DNA from: Oscillospiraceae bacterium
GTDB taxonomy: Bacteria > Bacillota > Clostridia > Oscillospirales > QAMX01
Direction: 5' to 3'
Assembly (NCBI GenBank): GCA_015067675.1
Contig: SVMB01000014.1
Location: forward strand, 1 to 53,151
DNA: 53,151 bases
This document shows, in pieces, positions 44,972 through 49,548 of the stretch. Below the pieces are notes generated by a model, which was not told the origin of the DNA, made no database searches, and saw only the letters and a program-made list of their open reading frames with translations. The translations under genes and the position numbers were made by a program. How positions within the stretch are numbered: position 1 is the stretch's first letter; each line of letters begins with the position of its first letter.

Positions 44972-45048
44972 GCGCTTGTACCTCAGCTGGATAGAGGGTC
45001 CGCCTCCTAAGCGGAACGCCCCCGGTTCGAATCCGGGCAAGCGCGCCA
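44972..45048 (+). tRNA. tRNA-Arg (anticodon CCU), carried by the element
   Basis: A full cloverleaf of 77 nt with encoded CCA: acceptor GCGCTTG/CAAGCGC, D arm CCTC/GAGG, anticodon stem TCCGC/GCGGA with loop CTCCTAA, T arm CCCGG/CCGGG with TTCGAAT. It decodes AGG. It has the same anticodon as the interrupted gene but a different body. No good promoter immediately upstream. Confidence 0.95.
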
Positions 45049-45352: not shown

Positions 45353-46717
45353 TTACAGTTTCTTAGACAGAACTCCAAGCAACGCTGCTATTTCCGGATC
45401 TTGAAGCATTTTGACAAGCGTTTCCGTCGTTATTCCTTCGGGAAGCGTGATCGGCGTTTGCTCCTGTTGCGGAACACGGTCATAGAAGGCTTCCTGAAAC
45501 AGCTGGGCATTGTTCTTGCGGTCATCGTCCAAAATGTGAGAATAAACATCAGTAATCATCTTTACCTGTGCATGTCCGGAGTCTCCCTGAACAGCTTTGA
45601 TGTCACCACCGTTCATTTTCAGCTTGTAAGTGATGCTTGCGTGTCTGAAACTATGAAAGACCACCGGTGGAAGGTCATGTTCTTTGATCAGACGATTCAG
45701 TGCATTGGTGATGGTAGAGCCTTCTGTGGGAAGTCCAAAAGGGCCTGCAAAAACCAGATTGTAATTCTGATATTCTGAGCCAAGCATTTCAATTGTATCG
45801 TCCTGCGTCTTTTTCCACTCAATTAACATCTGAGCAACAGCTACCGGCATGAATACTTTTCTGACGCTACTCTCGGTCTTCGGCTTTTTAAGTACCAGAA
45901 TCGTAGAAGATTTAGCAGAGGCAGTTGGAAACTGCTGCAATACGTCTTTATTATCCAGTTCATTCATTCCCTTACGGCTGACACGTTGAAGTTCTTTTTT
46001 TACATAAACAGATGGGGTACCAGATCGAATGCTTTCTTCGGAAATATCGATGCAATCCCAAGTCAGTCCAAGTAATTCACCCATGCGGAGCGAACAACAA
46101 AAAGCCAGATTCATCGCCATTGCCAATCTGGGATCTTCACAGAGCTGAAGCGCATTGAATAAGGTTTCTGCTGTCCAAATCTCTCGTTTCGCGCTTTCCG
46201 ATTTTGGAACAGTAGCATTTGATGCAGGATTTTTGGACATGATTTCCCACTTCACCGCCTGATTGAAACAGCTGCGGAGAATTTTATGAATTTCATACAC
46301 TGTTCGTGGAGTAAGGTATTTCTTAGAAACTTTTTGCCCAGCTTTGGGTACAGCTTTGGTCTTTAACAGGGTCTTATAGTATCGATCAATGATGAGGGTA
46401 TTTATATCAGATATTTTCATCGAACCGATTTGAGGTCTGATATAGTGTTCAATCAGCGCAATATGTGCGGAGTAAGTGGATAAAGACCATTTTTCTTTAC
46501 CGTAAAGATCGACGTATTCTTTCAGTAGTTCATCTAATGTATTGCATCGAGGAACCACAAAAGTGCCAATCTGCTCTTTGTATTCTATTTCTTTCAGACG
46601 TTTTTTAGCATCTGTCATATTCGGAAATGATTCCCACTTCTGTTTCCGTTTTCCGTCTTTATCATGGTAGGAGTAGACTACATAATAACTTTTATTCTTC
46701 TGAACGATAGATGCCAT
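45353..46717 (-). CDS. int: Tyrosine site-specific integrase
   Basis: A 454-aa protein with three parts. An N-terminal arm-binding-like domain (MASIVQKNKSYYVVYSYHDKDGKRKQKWE) is followed by a SAM-like core-binding domain (about 65-170, LDELLKEYVDLYG onward) and a C-terminal tyrosine recombinase domain. Catalytic residues are visible: Arg in FCCSLRMGELLGL, His-x-x-Arg in FHSFRHASITY, His in SGHAQVKM and the nucleophile Tyr in ITDVYSHIL. It should integrate and excise the element at the tRNA core. The start at 46717 has AAGGGAG and overlaps the preceding gene by 26 bp. Long for the family because of two inserts (GTPSVYVKKELQRVSRKGMNE; around KTESSVRK). Confidence 0.95.
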   Translation of the reverse strand: MASIVQKNKSYYVVYSYHDKDGKRKQKWESFPNMTDAKKRLKEIEYKEQIGTFVVPRCNTLDELLKEYVDLYGKEKWSLSTYSAHIALIEHYIRPQIGSMKISDINTLIIDRYYKTLLKTKAVPKAGQKVSKKYLTPRTVYEIHKILRSCFNQAVKWEIMSKNPASNATVPKSESAKREIWTAETLFNALQLCEDPRLAMAMNLAFCCSLRMGELLGLTWDCIDISEESIRSGTPSVYVKKELQRVSRKGMNELDNKDVLQQFPTASAKSSTILVLKKPKTESSVRKVFMPVAVAQMLIEWKKTQDDTIEMLGSEYQNYNLVFAGPFGLPTEGSTITNALNRLIKEHDLPPVVFHSFRHASITYKLKMNGGDIKAVQGDSGHAQVKMITDVYSHILDDDRKNNAQLFQEAFYDRVPQQEQTPITLPEGITTETLVKMLQDPEIAALLGVLSKKL

Positions 46718-47612
46718 TATTATTTCTCCCTTTTATGTATCTTTTGTATTCTGCTTCGGGTATTATGTATGATTTTCCTGATTTGATGGCAATCAATTCT
46801 CCGGTTTGGATTAGTTTATAGGCGTTTTTTCGACTGACACCAAGGTCTGACATAAGATCTTCAAGACGATAAGTATTCTTCGTTGAAGACGCAATGCAAG
46901 CATCGTTTTTTTCTTCCTTTTTTTTGGTGAGAAATGAAGATGAATCTTCTATAGTTGTAACTTCCGGAATTTTATCCGGCGACGACTCGATCTTTTTGTA
47001 ACGATTCTGAGAAGCATACCATCGTTCGAAACTAGAGATCGTCACTCGTTTTTGCCCGGCTACCTCTATAAAGTCAAACACAGTCTGATTTTTGGGATGA
47101 TCCATAATATAATAGATCTTGTTTCTGTGCAGTCCTAACATCCGTTTTATATCCGGCAAAGAATATGTCAATTCCATTATTTTGTTGTTAGCAGCACGAT
47201 CTTTAGCCAGCCTGTATTTGCTTTGTGTCGGATACCAACGGTCAAAACTCTCTTTTGTAATACGTTTCTGGTAATCAATCGTGATTTGAGTTAATGCCGG
47301 TATTTCCATCACTCGATATGCGCTATATTTGGATACACCAAGCAAAGCCATAATATCACGAGCTGAATAAGAATCAGCTTTTAGTTTCTCACCCGGTTCG
47401 GGTCCATTTTGAATACGGTATTTCGTCTGGTTACCGTACCATTCCCAAAAGCTGCTTTTCATGATTCGGATCTGACCGTTGAGCGTTATGGTCTGAATAT
47501 CCCTGTGTTTGAGAATCCAATAGGATTCCGTTTTCCCGATACCAAGCATTTTACTTAATTCGGGAACAGGGAATGAGTTTTGGTACTTTTTGAGTAGTTC
47601 AATTTCGTTCAT
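46692..47612 (-). CDS. Protein with four excisionase-like helix-turn-helix units
   Basis: A 306-aa protein made of four related units of about 50-60 residues (about 12-55, 83-130, 150-205, 250-295). Each starts with a winged-helix-like pattern (ELSKMLGIGKTESYWIL; DIMALLGVSKYSAYRVM; DIKRMLGLHRNKIYYIM; DLMSDLGVSRKNAYKLI). The first three units end in F-x-x-WY followed by Q-x-x-Y, while unit 4 ends in EAEYKRYIKG like a normal excisionase. A Lys/Glu-rich linker (KKKEEKND) precedes unit 4. The ATG at 47612 has GGAGG. It overlaps int by 26 bp, so it is made with the integrase and could position DNA arms in excision. Confidence 0.8.
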   Translation of the reverse strand: MNEIELLKKYQNSFPVPELSKMLGIGKTESYWILKHRDIQTITLNGQIRIMKSSFWEWYGNQTKYRIQNGPEPGEKLKADSYSARDIMALLGVSKYSAYRVMEIPALTQITIDYQKRITKESFDRWYPTQSKYRLAKDRAANNKIMELTYSLPDIKRMLGLHRNKIYYIMDHPKNQTVFDFIEVAGQKRVTISSFERWYASQNRYKKIESSPDKIPEVTTIEDSSSFLTKKKEEKNDACIASSTKNTYRLEDLMSDLGVSRKNAYKLIQTGELIAIKSGKSYIIPEAEYKRYIKGRNNNGIYRSEE

Positions 47613-47689
47613 TGTTAACCTCCACAATTTCTTATCAGATGTATATATTTTACTTGGGAAATTGCAGATTGTTAAGGATGTTGTTTTAC

Positions 47690-47887
47690 TTACATCTGAG
47701 TGTCAAGCCACTCATCGAAACTCTTTTTGGAGATACGGTATTTTCCACCGCCAATCTGGAACCAGCGAAATTCATTCCGTTTCAGGAGCGCATACACGGT
47801 AGGTCTGCTGACGCACAGAATGTTCTGTAATTCTTCCACTGTATAGCACCGCTTTTCGGCAGTGCTGCTTTGTAATGTAGTTGTCAT
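47690..47887 (-). CDS. xis: Excisionase-family helix-turn-helix protein
   Basis: A 65-aa protein with one MerR/excisionase-type winged helix: CYTVEELQNILCVSRPTVYALLKRNEFRWFQIGGGKYRISKKSFDEWLD. This is the standard pattern of small Xis/HTH_17 proteins in Tn916-like elements, which direct excision. The start at 47887 has AAGGAGG. It lies between mazF (17-bp gap) and the four-unit HTH gene (77-bp gap) in the recombination operon. Unit 4 of the downstream protein is a close relative. Confidence 0.9.
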   Translation of the reverse strand: MTTTLQSSTAEKRCYTVEELQNILCVSRPTVYALLKRNEFRWFQIGGGKYRISKKSFDEWLDTQM

Positions 47888-47904: not shown

Positions 47905-48285
47905 TTACGGAAATTCTTCAACTTCAGGGATGTGGAGTCCGAGGCTGATTTCAATGCAGTCGTCAACCTCATTCATTTGTTCTTTACTGAGCTTGCCGAG
48001 ATATTTTTTGACGCGCTGCTTGTCGATGGTTTTGATCTGTTCCAGAAGAACCATTGACCTGTTTTCAAGACAGCCTGCGTCTCCAATCTGGTAGTGTGTC
48101 GGCAGCTGTGCCTTCTTCCAAGATCGTGATGTGATTGGTGCCACGATCAGGGTTGGACTAAAAAAATTTCCGGCATTATTCTGCAAAACCAAGACAGGCC
48201 TCGTGCCGCCTTGCTCTGATCCGATGAACGGATCAAGGCAGGCAAGATAAATATCTCCCCGGCGATAGGTGCGATCTTCGTGCAT
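47905..48285 (-). CDS. mazF: MazF/PemK-family toxin, no antitoxin gene adjacent
   Basis: A 126-aa protein with the PemK/MazF fold: YRRGDIYLACLDPFIGSEQGGTRPVLVLQNN, LIVAPITSR, LPTHYQIGD, SMVLLEQIKTIDKQRV. Key residues for ribonuclease activity (the Arg of GTRPVL and the Ser/Thr of APITSR) are present. MazF normally cleaves mRNA and is neutralised by MazE, encoded immediately upstream. Here the 498 bp upstream carry no antitoxin ORF, and xis follows by 17 bp. The start at 48285 has AGGAGG. It may be an element-stabilising toxin or a domesticated endoribonuclease. Confidence 0.9.
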   Translation of the reverse strand: MHEDRTYRRGDIYLACLDPFIGSEQGGTRPVLVLQNNAGNFFSPTLIVAPITSRSWKKAQLPTHYQIGDAGCLENRSMVLLEQIKTIDKQRVKKYLGKLSKEQMNEVDDCIEISLGLHIPEVEEFP

Positions 48286-48311: not shown

Positions 48312-48745
48312 ATGTAAAAGGGCGAACGGTATTGTTACTGTTCGCCCTTTCTATTGGGTTGGAACGGCAGTGATAGTCCGCCATTCCATAGAATAATGTC
48401 TTACTTTCTACTCTATTCAGACTGCCTTATGCGTTCGGCACTCGCTTCTACGCCTATGATTCACTTACATAGCCTCTCACCGGATGGCCTGCGGTATGCA
48501 TACTGTCACACTCGGACTGACCCTGGTGGGGAGTATCCCCTCTCTGTCCTCGTCGCCAATCGGGAACAACCCGACTACTCCGAAGCTGATATTTGTCGCT
48601 CCCCGTATAATCGGATCGTCGCGTATCCTTCGGCTTGGCTCTTACAAGAGAGTTCGTTATCTGATAAAGCTATTCAGTTTTCAAAGTACAGTTGCCACAA
48701 ACGGAGATCTACTCTCGTCTGCTATGGAGGAAATAACTCCCCTCA
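48312..48745 (-). ncRNA. Candidate structured non-coding RNA
   Basis: The 498-bp gap between mazF and the sigma-like gene has no convincing reading frame. The minus-strand transcript contains TTTGAAAACTGAATA (48681-48667), like leader sequences found before rRNA and some element genes. It also has hairpins GGGGA/TCCCC (about 48542-48530), TCGGG/CCCGA (about 48576-48562) and GGAATGGC/GCCGTTCC (48386-48360), and long-range GGCAGT/ACTGCC. It ends in an AAAGGGCGAAC hairpin plus TTTT. I could not match it to a known RNA family. Confidence 0.45.
48317..48350 (-). terminator. Intrinsic terminator at the end of the candidate RNA
   Basis: AAAGGGCGAAC (48317-48327) pairs with GTTCGCCCTTT (48340-48350), with an extended inner stem. 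The T tract (CCCTTTTA) is on the minus strand. Confidence 0.75.
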
Positions 48746-48783
48746 ATAGGTAGCCAACGAGAAAGGGCAAATTAGGAAGCTGT

Positions 48784-49275
48784 TCACAAAACATTTACAA
48801 ATAAATTTTTGAATTTGCTCCATCGTGCTCTGACTGCACGATCTGATATCTGCAAAATTCTAGCGGCATCTGTTTGCGAATATCCTTCAAATACAATCAG
48901 CGTGATCAATTCAATATCGCACTGTGGCAGCGTTTTAATTATATCGATAAGACTCGATCTTTCAATCATATCGATCCACCCATATCGATTCTTTACGGAT
49001 CCATCCAATTCCATGGTGCATGACATCACTTCCAGGAATTTTTTTAACAAGGAATTATCACTTTCATCCTGATCGTCTTCTTCAAATATGCGCATATCTA
49101 ACGGCTGTGTATGCATTTGATAATTCCTTTCGCCACGAAAGACATCCAGATCGAACTGCTGCATCTGCTCAATTTGATAATCGGACATGCCTGTAGCGTG
49201 ATATTTCTCCGCAAGACGCACTTGTTTTTCATCAAACTTCTTTCTTTCAAATCCATTATTCCAAGCCATTTTCAT
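48784..49275 (-). CDS. Sigma-like HTH protein (sigma-70 region 4-type)
   Basis: A 163-aa protein. The C-terminal 70 residues contain a region-4-like helix-turn-helix (LIDIIKTLPQCDIELITLIVFEGYSQTDAARILQISDRAVRARWSKFK), as in sigma-70-like proteins of Tn916/Tn1549-type elements. The N-terminal part is acidic (FEEDDQDESDNS) and shows no clear region 2, so it is not a canonical sigma factor. It may activate element genes or be an accessory factor. Start 49275 has GGAGA. It lies behind the structured leader 49358-49548, whose terminator would limit read-through into it. Confidence 0.75.
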   Translation of the reverse strand: MKMAWNNGFERKKFDEKQVRLAEKYHATGMSDYQIEQMQQFDLDVFRGERNYQMHTQPLDMRIFEEDDQDESDNSLLKKFLEVMSCTMELDGSVKNRYGWIDMIERSSLIDIIKTLPQCDIELITLIVFEGYSQTDAARILQISDRAVRARWSKFKNLFVNVL

Positions 49276-49357: not shown

Positions 49358-49400
49358 AAAAAAGACCTTTCCCGGGCCATTGGAAGCGGCGGGAAAGGTC
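49358..49400 (-). terminator. Intrinsic terminator upstream of the sigma-like gene
   Basis: GACCTTTCCCG (49364-49374) pairs with CGGGAAAGGTC (49390-49400); T6 on the minus strand (49363-49358). Confidence 0.85.
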
Positions 49401-49548
49401 TGATCGAGCCGTATGAAGCATTTTTCGAGCAAGCGTTTGAAAAACAAAAAGCGCCGTAGAAAGCAGAAGATACAGTTGTTCTATATCTTCCGGCTTCATA
49501 CGGCGCTTGATAGCCACGGGATTACTCCCGTCCTTCGCTGGGCTCGAT
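49358..49548 (-). ncRNA. Candidate structured leader RNA (riboswitch- or attenuator-like)
   Basis: On the minus strand ATCGAGCC (49548-49541) can pair with GGCTCGAT (49410-49403). Inside lie hairpin ACGGGA/TCCCGT, hairpin AGCGCCGTA/TACGGCGCT (49507-49499 with 49458-49450) with inner GAAGATA/TATCTTC and a U tract, and a competing 12-bp pairing of 49504-49493 with 49419-49408. A terminator follows at 49400-49358. A GTG-started 81-codon frame (49517-49272) runs through these structures and is not supported as a gene. No other gene is seen from 49276 to 49581. Confidence 0.5.

Follow-up and report, generated by a model that had tools for sequence, protein, structure and literature searches.

A boxA-led structured RNA between a sigma-like gene and mazF in an Oscillospiraceae bacterium, a probable divergent relative of the Tn916 antiterminator canT

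Introduction

In a 53,151-nt stretch of DNA from an Oscillospiraceae bacterium (hereafter, the window), about 430 nt between a sigma-like gene and mazF were marked in a preliminary description as a long structured non-coding RNA candidate that could not be assigned to a family. The locus raises the question of whether a structured RNA is really encoded at this place and, if so, to which known RNAs it is related and what it would do ahead of a toxin gene.

Results

The locus, its coding potential, and its folding

The features of the locus are collected in Table 1. Because TTTGAAAACTGAATA occurs on the minus strand inside 48690–48671, the RNA reads leftwards, towards mazF, and its conserved core extends from about 48690 to 48411; the part at 48691–48745 has no counterpart in the RNA of the relatives. 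Both flanking genes were as first described and lie on the same strand as the RNA, and excisionase and integrase genes are found downstream of it. This arrangement resembles one end of an integrative element, the end with the integrase; as the contig stops at 53151, any transfer genes and far-end terminator are out of view. In the source genome, which is 73% complete, neither a second att copy nor a match to the Rep_trans relaxase family (PF02486) was found. The sigma, mazF, xis-like, and int genes are all open reading frames in the window. Nested inverted repeats at 49363–49508, upstream of the sigma-like gene, are possibly an attenuator of that gene. UUUGCCCUUUCUCGUUGGCUACCUAUUGAGGGG (48737–48771, minus strand), upstream of boxA, matches a repeat that occurs in L004–L008 and, as arrays, in L009 and L029.

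Table 1. Positions of the RNA parts and the neighboring genes in the window
Feature	Positions	Strand	Basis or remark
boxA-like leader UGUACUUUGAAAACUGAAUA, forming the 5′ end of the conserved RNA	48671–48690	−	R1 match, word search
P1, 5′ strand CUUUAUCAGA, directly after boxA	48660–48669	−	homologous position; own pairing weak, one bulge
P2, 5′ strand CUCUCU	48647–48652	−	R1 alignment, subtype covariation
k-turn-like hairpin CGC-GAC-GA...GA-GCG	48597–48623	−	motif scan, R1 alignment
P4 hairpin UCGGGUUGUUCCCGA	48560–48574	−	R1 alignment; covarying helix 4 of the 5′ module
P2, 3′ strand AGAGAG	48540–48545	−	R1 alignment, subtype covariation
P5, 5′ strand CACC (after UACUCCC)	48525–48528	−	subtype helix 2; counterpart is helix 1 of the 3′ module
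P5, 3′ strand GGUG	48478–48481	−	subtype helix 2
P6 hairpin CUAUG-loop-CAUAG, with loop UAAGUGAAU typical of the window subtype	48454–48472	−	subtype helix 3, pattern scan
P7 hairpin UGCC...GGCA	48423–48440	−	by eye; stem altered in most relatives, with shifting registers
P1, 3′ strand UCUGAAUAGAG, end of the conserved core	48411–48421	−	homologous position
Hairpin after the core, z −5.4	48360–48388	−	folding; no counterpart in the relatives examined
Terminator-like hairpin in the gap between RNA and mazF, −21.3 kcal/mol, z −9.3, short U tract	48316–48351	−	
Sigma70_r4_2 (sigma-70 region 4-like) protein, upstream gene	48784–49275	−	
PemK/MazF toxin gene, first gene downstream of the RNA	47905–48285	−	
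Excisionase-family HTH protein	47690–47887	−	TIGR01764
Second HTH protein	46692–47627	−	
Tyrosine integrase, adjoining tRNA-Arg	45353–46717	−	
tRNA-Arg (CCT), likely attachment site	44972–45048	+	

A protein-coding reading of the locus was rejected. The RNA strand has stops in all three frames, and the opposite strand has two open frames of 131 and 89 aa that matched no Pfam family; most matches to these frames in the relatives were broken by stops or very short, so that no protein frame is conserved. The absence of coding features noted in the preliminary description was thus borne out. The stable stems that it also reported were confirmed for the stretch as a whole but not for the conserved part: 48312–48745 folded with a z of −5.6 on the minus strand versus −2.1 on the plus strand, whereas the core alone (48405–48694) reached only −1.65, with 17 of 200 shuffles equally good. 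The excess stability of 48312–48745 is largely due to two hairpins behind the core. Fold stability was therefore rejected as evidence for the core, and, because the core fold alone does not stand out, the real evidence for the window RNA is comparative. The terminator reported in the same direction corresponds to a terminator-like hairpin (48351–48316), but one whose U tract is short and which a terminator scan did not pick up. The upstream sequence UUUGCCCUUUCU (48760–48771) is able to base-pair with this hairpin in its 5′ arm (48341–48352); this pairing may be a second, simpler antiterminator, or may have arisen by chance.

Relatives and covariance models

A family-level blastn search (21 genomes) recovered nothing besides the window copy itself, and a class-level search with the core (291 genomes) gave the window copy and one boxA-containing pemK locus. 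An order-wide search (394 genomes) identified L003, which is colinear with the window and 67% identical over about 260 nt. In L003, boxA is directly preceded by a sequence that looks promoter-like by eye, and the RNA is followed by an excisionase-like gene. A further search with a piece of L003 led to L036, L038, and five near-identical loci (L039–L043), which we take to be Tn916, recognized by its xis protein. Plasmid records with the identical stretch name the gene “excisionase from transposon Tn916,” and the match to the L003 piece lies in the gap before xis, that is, in the canT region. In the annotated elements L044 and L046–L050, sigma-70 and HTH genes stand before the RNA and genes for an excisionase, TnpW, or a recombinase after it, the upstream genes of L050 being named “DNA-binding protein” and “hypothetical protein.” No blastn match to the window RNA was found among plasmids and phages; among viral contigs, the leader alone gave three loci, all without the RNA, and the window-subtype pattern gave none. 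The Rfam family SQ2397 (RF03532) was also observed in Tn916-type loci, namely L039 (47–276), L044 (819–1048), and L084, and lies on the strand of the RNA in L039 and L044.

From 16 relatives, among them Tn916 canT but neither the window nor L003, we derived a covariance model (R1) for the 5′ module. Over the 53-kb window, R1 matched positions 48534–48690 with 71.3 bits (E 2.9e−17), against 11.1 bits (E 0.12) at the next-best place, and the window RNA with boxA cut off scored 38.6 bits (E 1.3e−10; 771 bases searched). L003 scored 65.6 bits. When 24 other loci were tested after the model had been built, 17 reached at least 24 bits, and seven loci with little besides boxA, the rRNA spacer L031 among them, scored 19.7–24.4 bits. 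Across the phylum, matches occurred in 26 of 299 genomes, the source genome included. By the R1 alignment, the 5′ module of the window RNA is a homolog of the canT one, and the position of the RNA also corresponds to that of canT.

The model of the 3′ module (R2, from 13 relatives) gave no match in the window with filters on and, with filters off, 7.7 bits (E 0.16) in the correct register. It scored 32.2 bits on L003 and 30–50 bits on L112, L113, L114, L117, L118, and L121, and there was no match on L115, L120, or L123. In these comparisons, the window diverges in its 3′ module, which is joined to the family via L003, L112, L114, L118, and L121 (R2, 30–40 bits). Searching the genome collection with a pattern derived from the window and L003 gave 12 places, 10 of which are relatives by sequence, mostly in gut Clostridia and Faecalibacterium; L119 repeats L003, and L116 and L122 were judged to be chance matches. 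In this window subtype, a hairpin with the loop UAAGUNAAU replaces the GGGGUGGAACUCCC element. L113 (6690–6900) and L117 appear by eye to be minimal copies, with no boxA or P1 in view, in which P2, the k-turn-like hairpin, and the 3′ module are kept.

Covariation, boxA, and the k-turn-like motif

In the 5′ module (16 sequences), 16 of 19 pairs changed on both sides and 86.8% of the cells were paired, compared with 37–45% in slid controls, and in the 3′ module (13 sequences), 11 of 15 pairs did so and 95.9% of the cells were paired, compared with 45–63%, both sets of counts coming from chosen rows and from structures predicted from the same alignments. Alignments A2 (16 sequences) and A3 (13 sequences) were picked by eye from the collection, favoring compact or complete copies; L046, L048, and L049 (degenerate boxA) were left out of A2, L114 (incomplete boxA) was left out of A4, and L113 and L117, ahead of which no boxA was seen, were also left out. 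For P2, P5, and P6 of the window subtype, 5 of 15 pairs covaried and 120 of 120 cells were paired, versus 37–57% in slid controls. With helices that covary relative to these controls and a family model that matches the window, the long structured non-coding RNA suggested at the outset is real; neither of the observations named there as refuting it, a lack of covariation or a conserved protein frame in homologues, was made.

The long-range pairing near the 3′ end held for the family rather than for the window. In the relatives, the stretch after boxA pairs with a stretch about 200–300 nt further on, and in a swap control, 17 of 34 own pairs exceeded the 95th percentile, compared with 43 of 1,122 swapped pairs. 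In contrast, the best ungapped P1 stem of the window did not exceed the swap control; by eye, a homologous stem can be drawn if one bulge is allowed.

The leader-like sequence proved to be the boxA-like start of this covarying family. Its 16-nt word also occurs, with one mismatch, in the 16S–23S rRNA spacer L031, and at the sequence level it matches the boxA of rRNA operons. With up to three mismatches, the word was present 60–280 nt upstream in 25 of 30 pemK RNA loci, some of which are near copies of each other, compared with 4 of 88 control stretches. A k-turn consists of a C-helix, a 3-nt loop, tandem G·A pairs, and an NC-helix, and CGC-GAC-GA/GA-GCG of the window satisfies this rule as far as it concerns sequence. 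The motif CGC-NNN-GA/GA-GCG was found in 26 of 35 sequences, which are related to one another and include the window, the other nine lacking the strict motif, and in 5 of 1,750 shuffles.

Relation to the pemK and dinG RNA families

The pemK and dinG RNAs were reportedly first described by Weinberg in 2017, and we know of no function assigned to either family. In the canT region of Tn916, cmscan placed pemK RNA (RF02913) in the 3′ half with 55.0 bits (cut-off 34.8), and RF02913 was at or above the cut-off in nine of ten relatives scanned, all but L003. The family occurred in 94 of the 295 genomes sampled from the order and in 0 of 14 control genomes. There was no match in the source genome, the window remaining below the gathering score of 34.8 bits, and the window did not match dinG RNA (RF03082; gathering score, 46.9 bits). 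Over 48312–48745, none of the Rfam families attained its gathering score, including HEARO, GOLLD, ROOL, the group II intron, and the TnpB/IscB guide RNAs that had been named for a search. At E values up to 5, only sub-cut-off families appeared, none of them of a guide RNA, an antitoxin RNA, or an intron remnant, so that these earlier suggestions gained no support.

When 20 R1 loci were scanned with Rfam, 15 carried pemK RNA, 2 carried dinG RNA behind the 5′ module, and 3 carried neither; 10 further loci, mostly weaker R1 matches together with L125 from blastn, added 4 with pemK RNA and 1 with dinG RNA. The dinG RNA lies directly behind a boxA-led 5′ module in L091, L098, and L108. As aligned here, canT, pemK RNA, and dinG RNA are joined by one boxA-led 5′ module. 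No paper linking canT, pemK RNA, and boxA was found in searches of the open-licence PMC literature.

The first gene after pemK RNA, assigned by eye in 30 loci, encodes PemK in 5 and ParA in 11. Pfam searches of ten downstream proteins, nine from these 30 loci and one from L112, gave four PemK, three ParA-type, one integrase, one resolvase, and one protein with only a sub-threshold HTH match. Because the downstream genes vary, the label “pemK RNA” refers to just one among several neighbors, and this variety suits an operon-level device.

Discussion

Function of the window RNA

In the sections of Wirachman and Grossman (2024; PMC11658703) drawn on here, canT of Tn916 is described as a 452-nt, orientation-specific, cis-acting RNA that is a processive antiterminator needed for conjugation; it makes the polymerase read through several terminators, every terminator reported being overcome, and is without activity in trans. 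Those sections call its structure–function relationship complicated, leave the structure open, and do not mention boxA; they report canT-like sequences from some further elements, whose RNA structures were not evaluated, and describe read-through in Tn916 that crosses the circle junction into the genes of the other end.

From the sequence relationships, we consider it likely that the window RNA is a divergent, canT-type, cis-acting processive antiterminator of an integrative, and probably conjugative, element. The order of sigma/HTH gene, RNA, and xis–int genes seen with canT-type RNAs is found in the window, with mazF intervening. Against this reading, the 3′ module of the window was missed by RF02913 and by the filtered R2 search, P1 does not exceed its control, the fold of the core is not unusually stable, and, with the contig stopping at 53151, a far-end terminator and transfer genes are out of view; the search for a relaxase and a second att copy in the 73% complete genome was also negative. 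The window's own 3′ module is the weakest point, and we infer the function of the window copy from its sequence.

The RNA might instead serve only the mazF gene behind it, as a cis-acting regulator such as an attenuator or a riboswitch-like leader, since mazF follows the RNA in both the window and L036, a terminator-like hairpin lies between the two in the window, and Rfam types RF02913 as Cis-reg. However, the same RNA also precedes genes for excisionase, ParA, recombinase, and other proteins, and canT of Tn916 precedes xis rather than pemK and, in the sections of PMC11658703 cited above, acts on every terminator reported; regulation dedicated to mazF is therefore unlikely. The divergent 3′ module, the weak P1, and the missing relaxase family match and second att would also fit a canT-type RNA that has decayed and lost its function within a broken element. 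Decay of this kind appears quite improbable, given that the P2, P5, and P6 pairs of the window are intact, with compensatory changes across the set, that the k-turn-like motif and boxA are kept, and that the reading frames of sigma, mazF, the xis-like gene, and int are open. boxA is known outside rRNA operons in general (PMC5725501, in the part drawn on), which would allow for a trans-acting RNA, for example, a MazF antitoxin RNA or a regulatory sRNA, in which boxA protects only its own transcription; with downstream genes that vary and a canT reported as inactive in trans (PMC11658703, same sections), we regard this as highly improbable.

If the window RNA is a canT-type antiterminator, a polymerase arriving from the sigma-like gene would transcribe boxA first, and boxA would be expected to recruit the host NusB–S10, a binding that acts in rRNA and lambda antitermination according to the part of PMC12691694 drawn on here. 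The k-turn hairpin, the P2/P4 domain, and the 3′ domain would fold and stay with the polymerase, making it resistant to terminators. The antiterminated polymerase would pass the hairpin at 48351–48316 into the mazF, excisionase, and integrase genes and, after excision and circularization, might cross the junction into the far-end genes, by analogy with Tn916. Somewhat more tentatively, we lean towards a broader interpretation, in which canT, pemK RNA, dinG RNA, and the window subtype form a single superfamily of antiterminator RNAs carried by mobile elements of Bacillota, each combining an rRNA-type boxA with a k-turn hairpin and an exchangeable 3′ domain; these RNAs would borrow the host rRNA antitermination machinery (NusB–S10 and perhaps an L7Ae-type k-turn binder) to obtain a terminator-proof polymerase. 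K-turns may bind L7Ae-type proteins.

This analysis offers a comparative model of canT, in which the helices covary, the start resembles boxA, and a k-turn-like motif is present, and the pemK and dinG RNA families gain antitermination as a functional hypothesis. It also suggests how, in Bacillota of the gut and elsewhere, conjugative transposons and further mobile elements could use a host system to couple gene expression to excision; judging from the share of sampled genomes of the order with pemK RNA, the device would be common, if this is true.

Comparison with known systems

Like the window RNA, canT is placed between a sigma/HTH gene and excisionase–integrase genes, and the two share a boxA-like start, P2, the k-turn-like hairpin, P4, the order of modules, and one covariance model. 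They differ in that canT is followed by xis and the window RNA by mazF, and in that the canT type has the GGGGUGGAACUCCC element, whereas the window has the hairpin loop UAAGUGAAU. In canT and most relatives, RF02913 takes up the 3′ half, and a homologous position exists in the window; the RF02913 model comprises 61 positions, with boxA and the 5′ module outside. The dinG RNA shares the 5′ module with the family in the three loci given above, in contrast to the window, which is without a dinG match. The put RNA of HK022, EAR, and conAn2 of pLS20, named in the sections of PMC11658703 drawn on, are also cases of RNA-based processive antitermination; a conAn2-like relation was rejected, no R1 match above 12 bits being found in 50,000 of the 65,774 bases of pLS20. 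Finally, the leader word is shared with the rRNA boxA, the element bound by NusB–S10, as seen in the rRNA spacer L031, whereas in the window boxA is followed by a large structured RNA.
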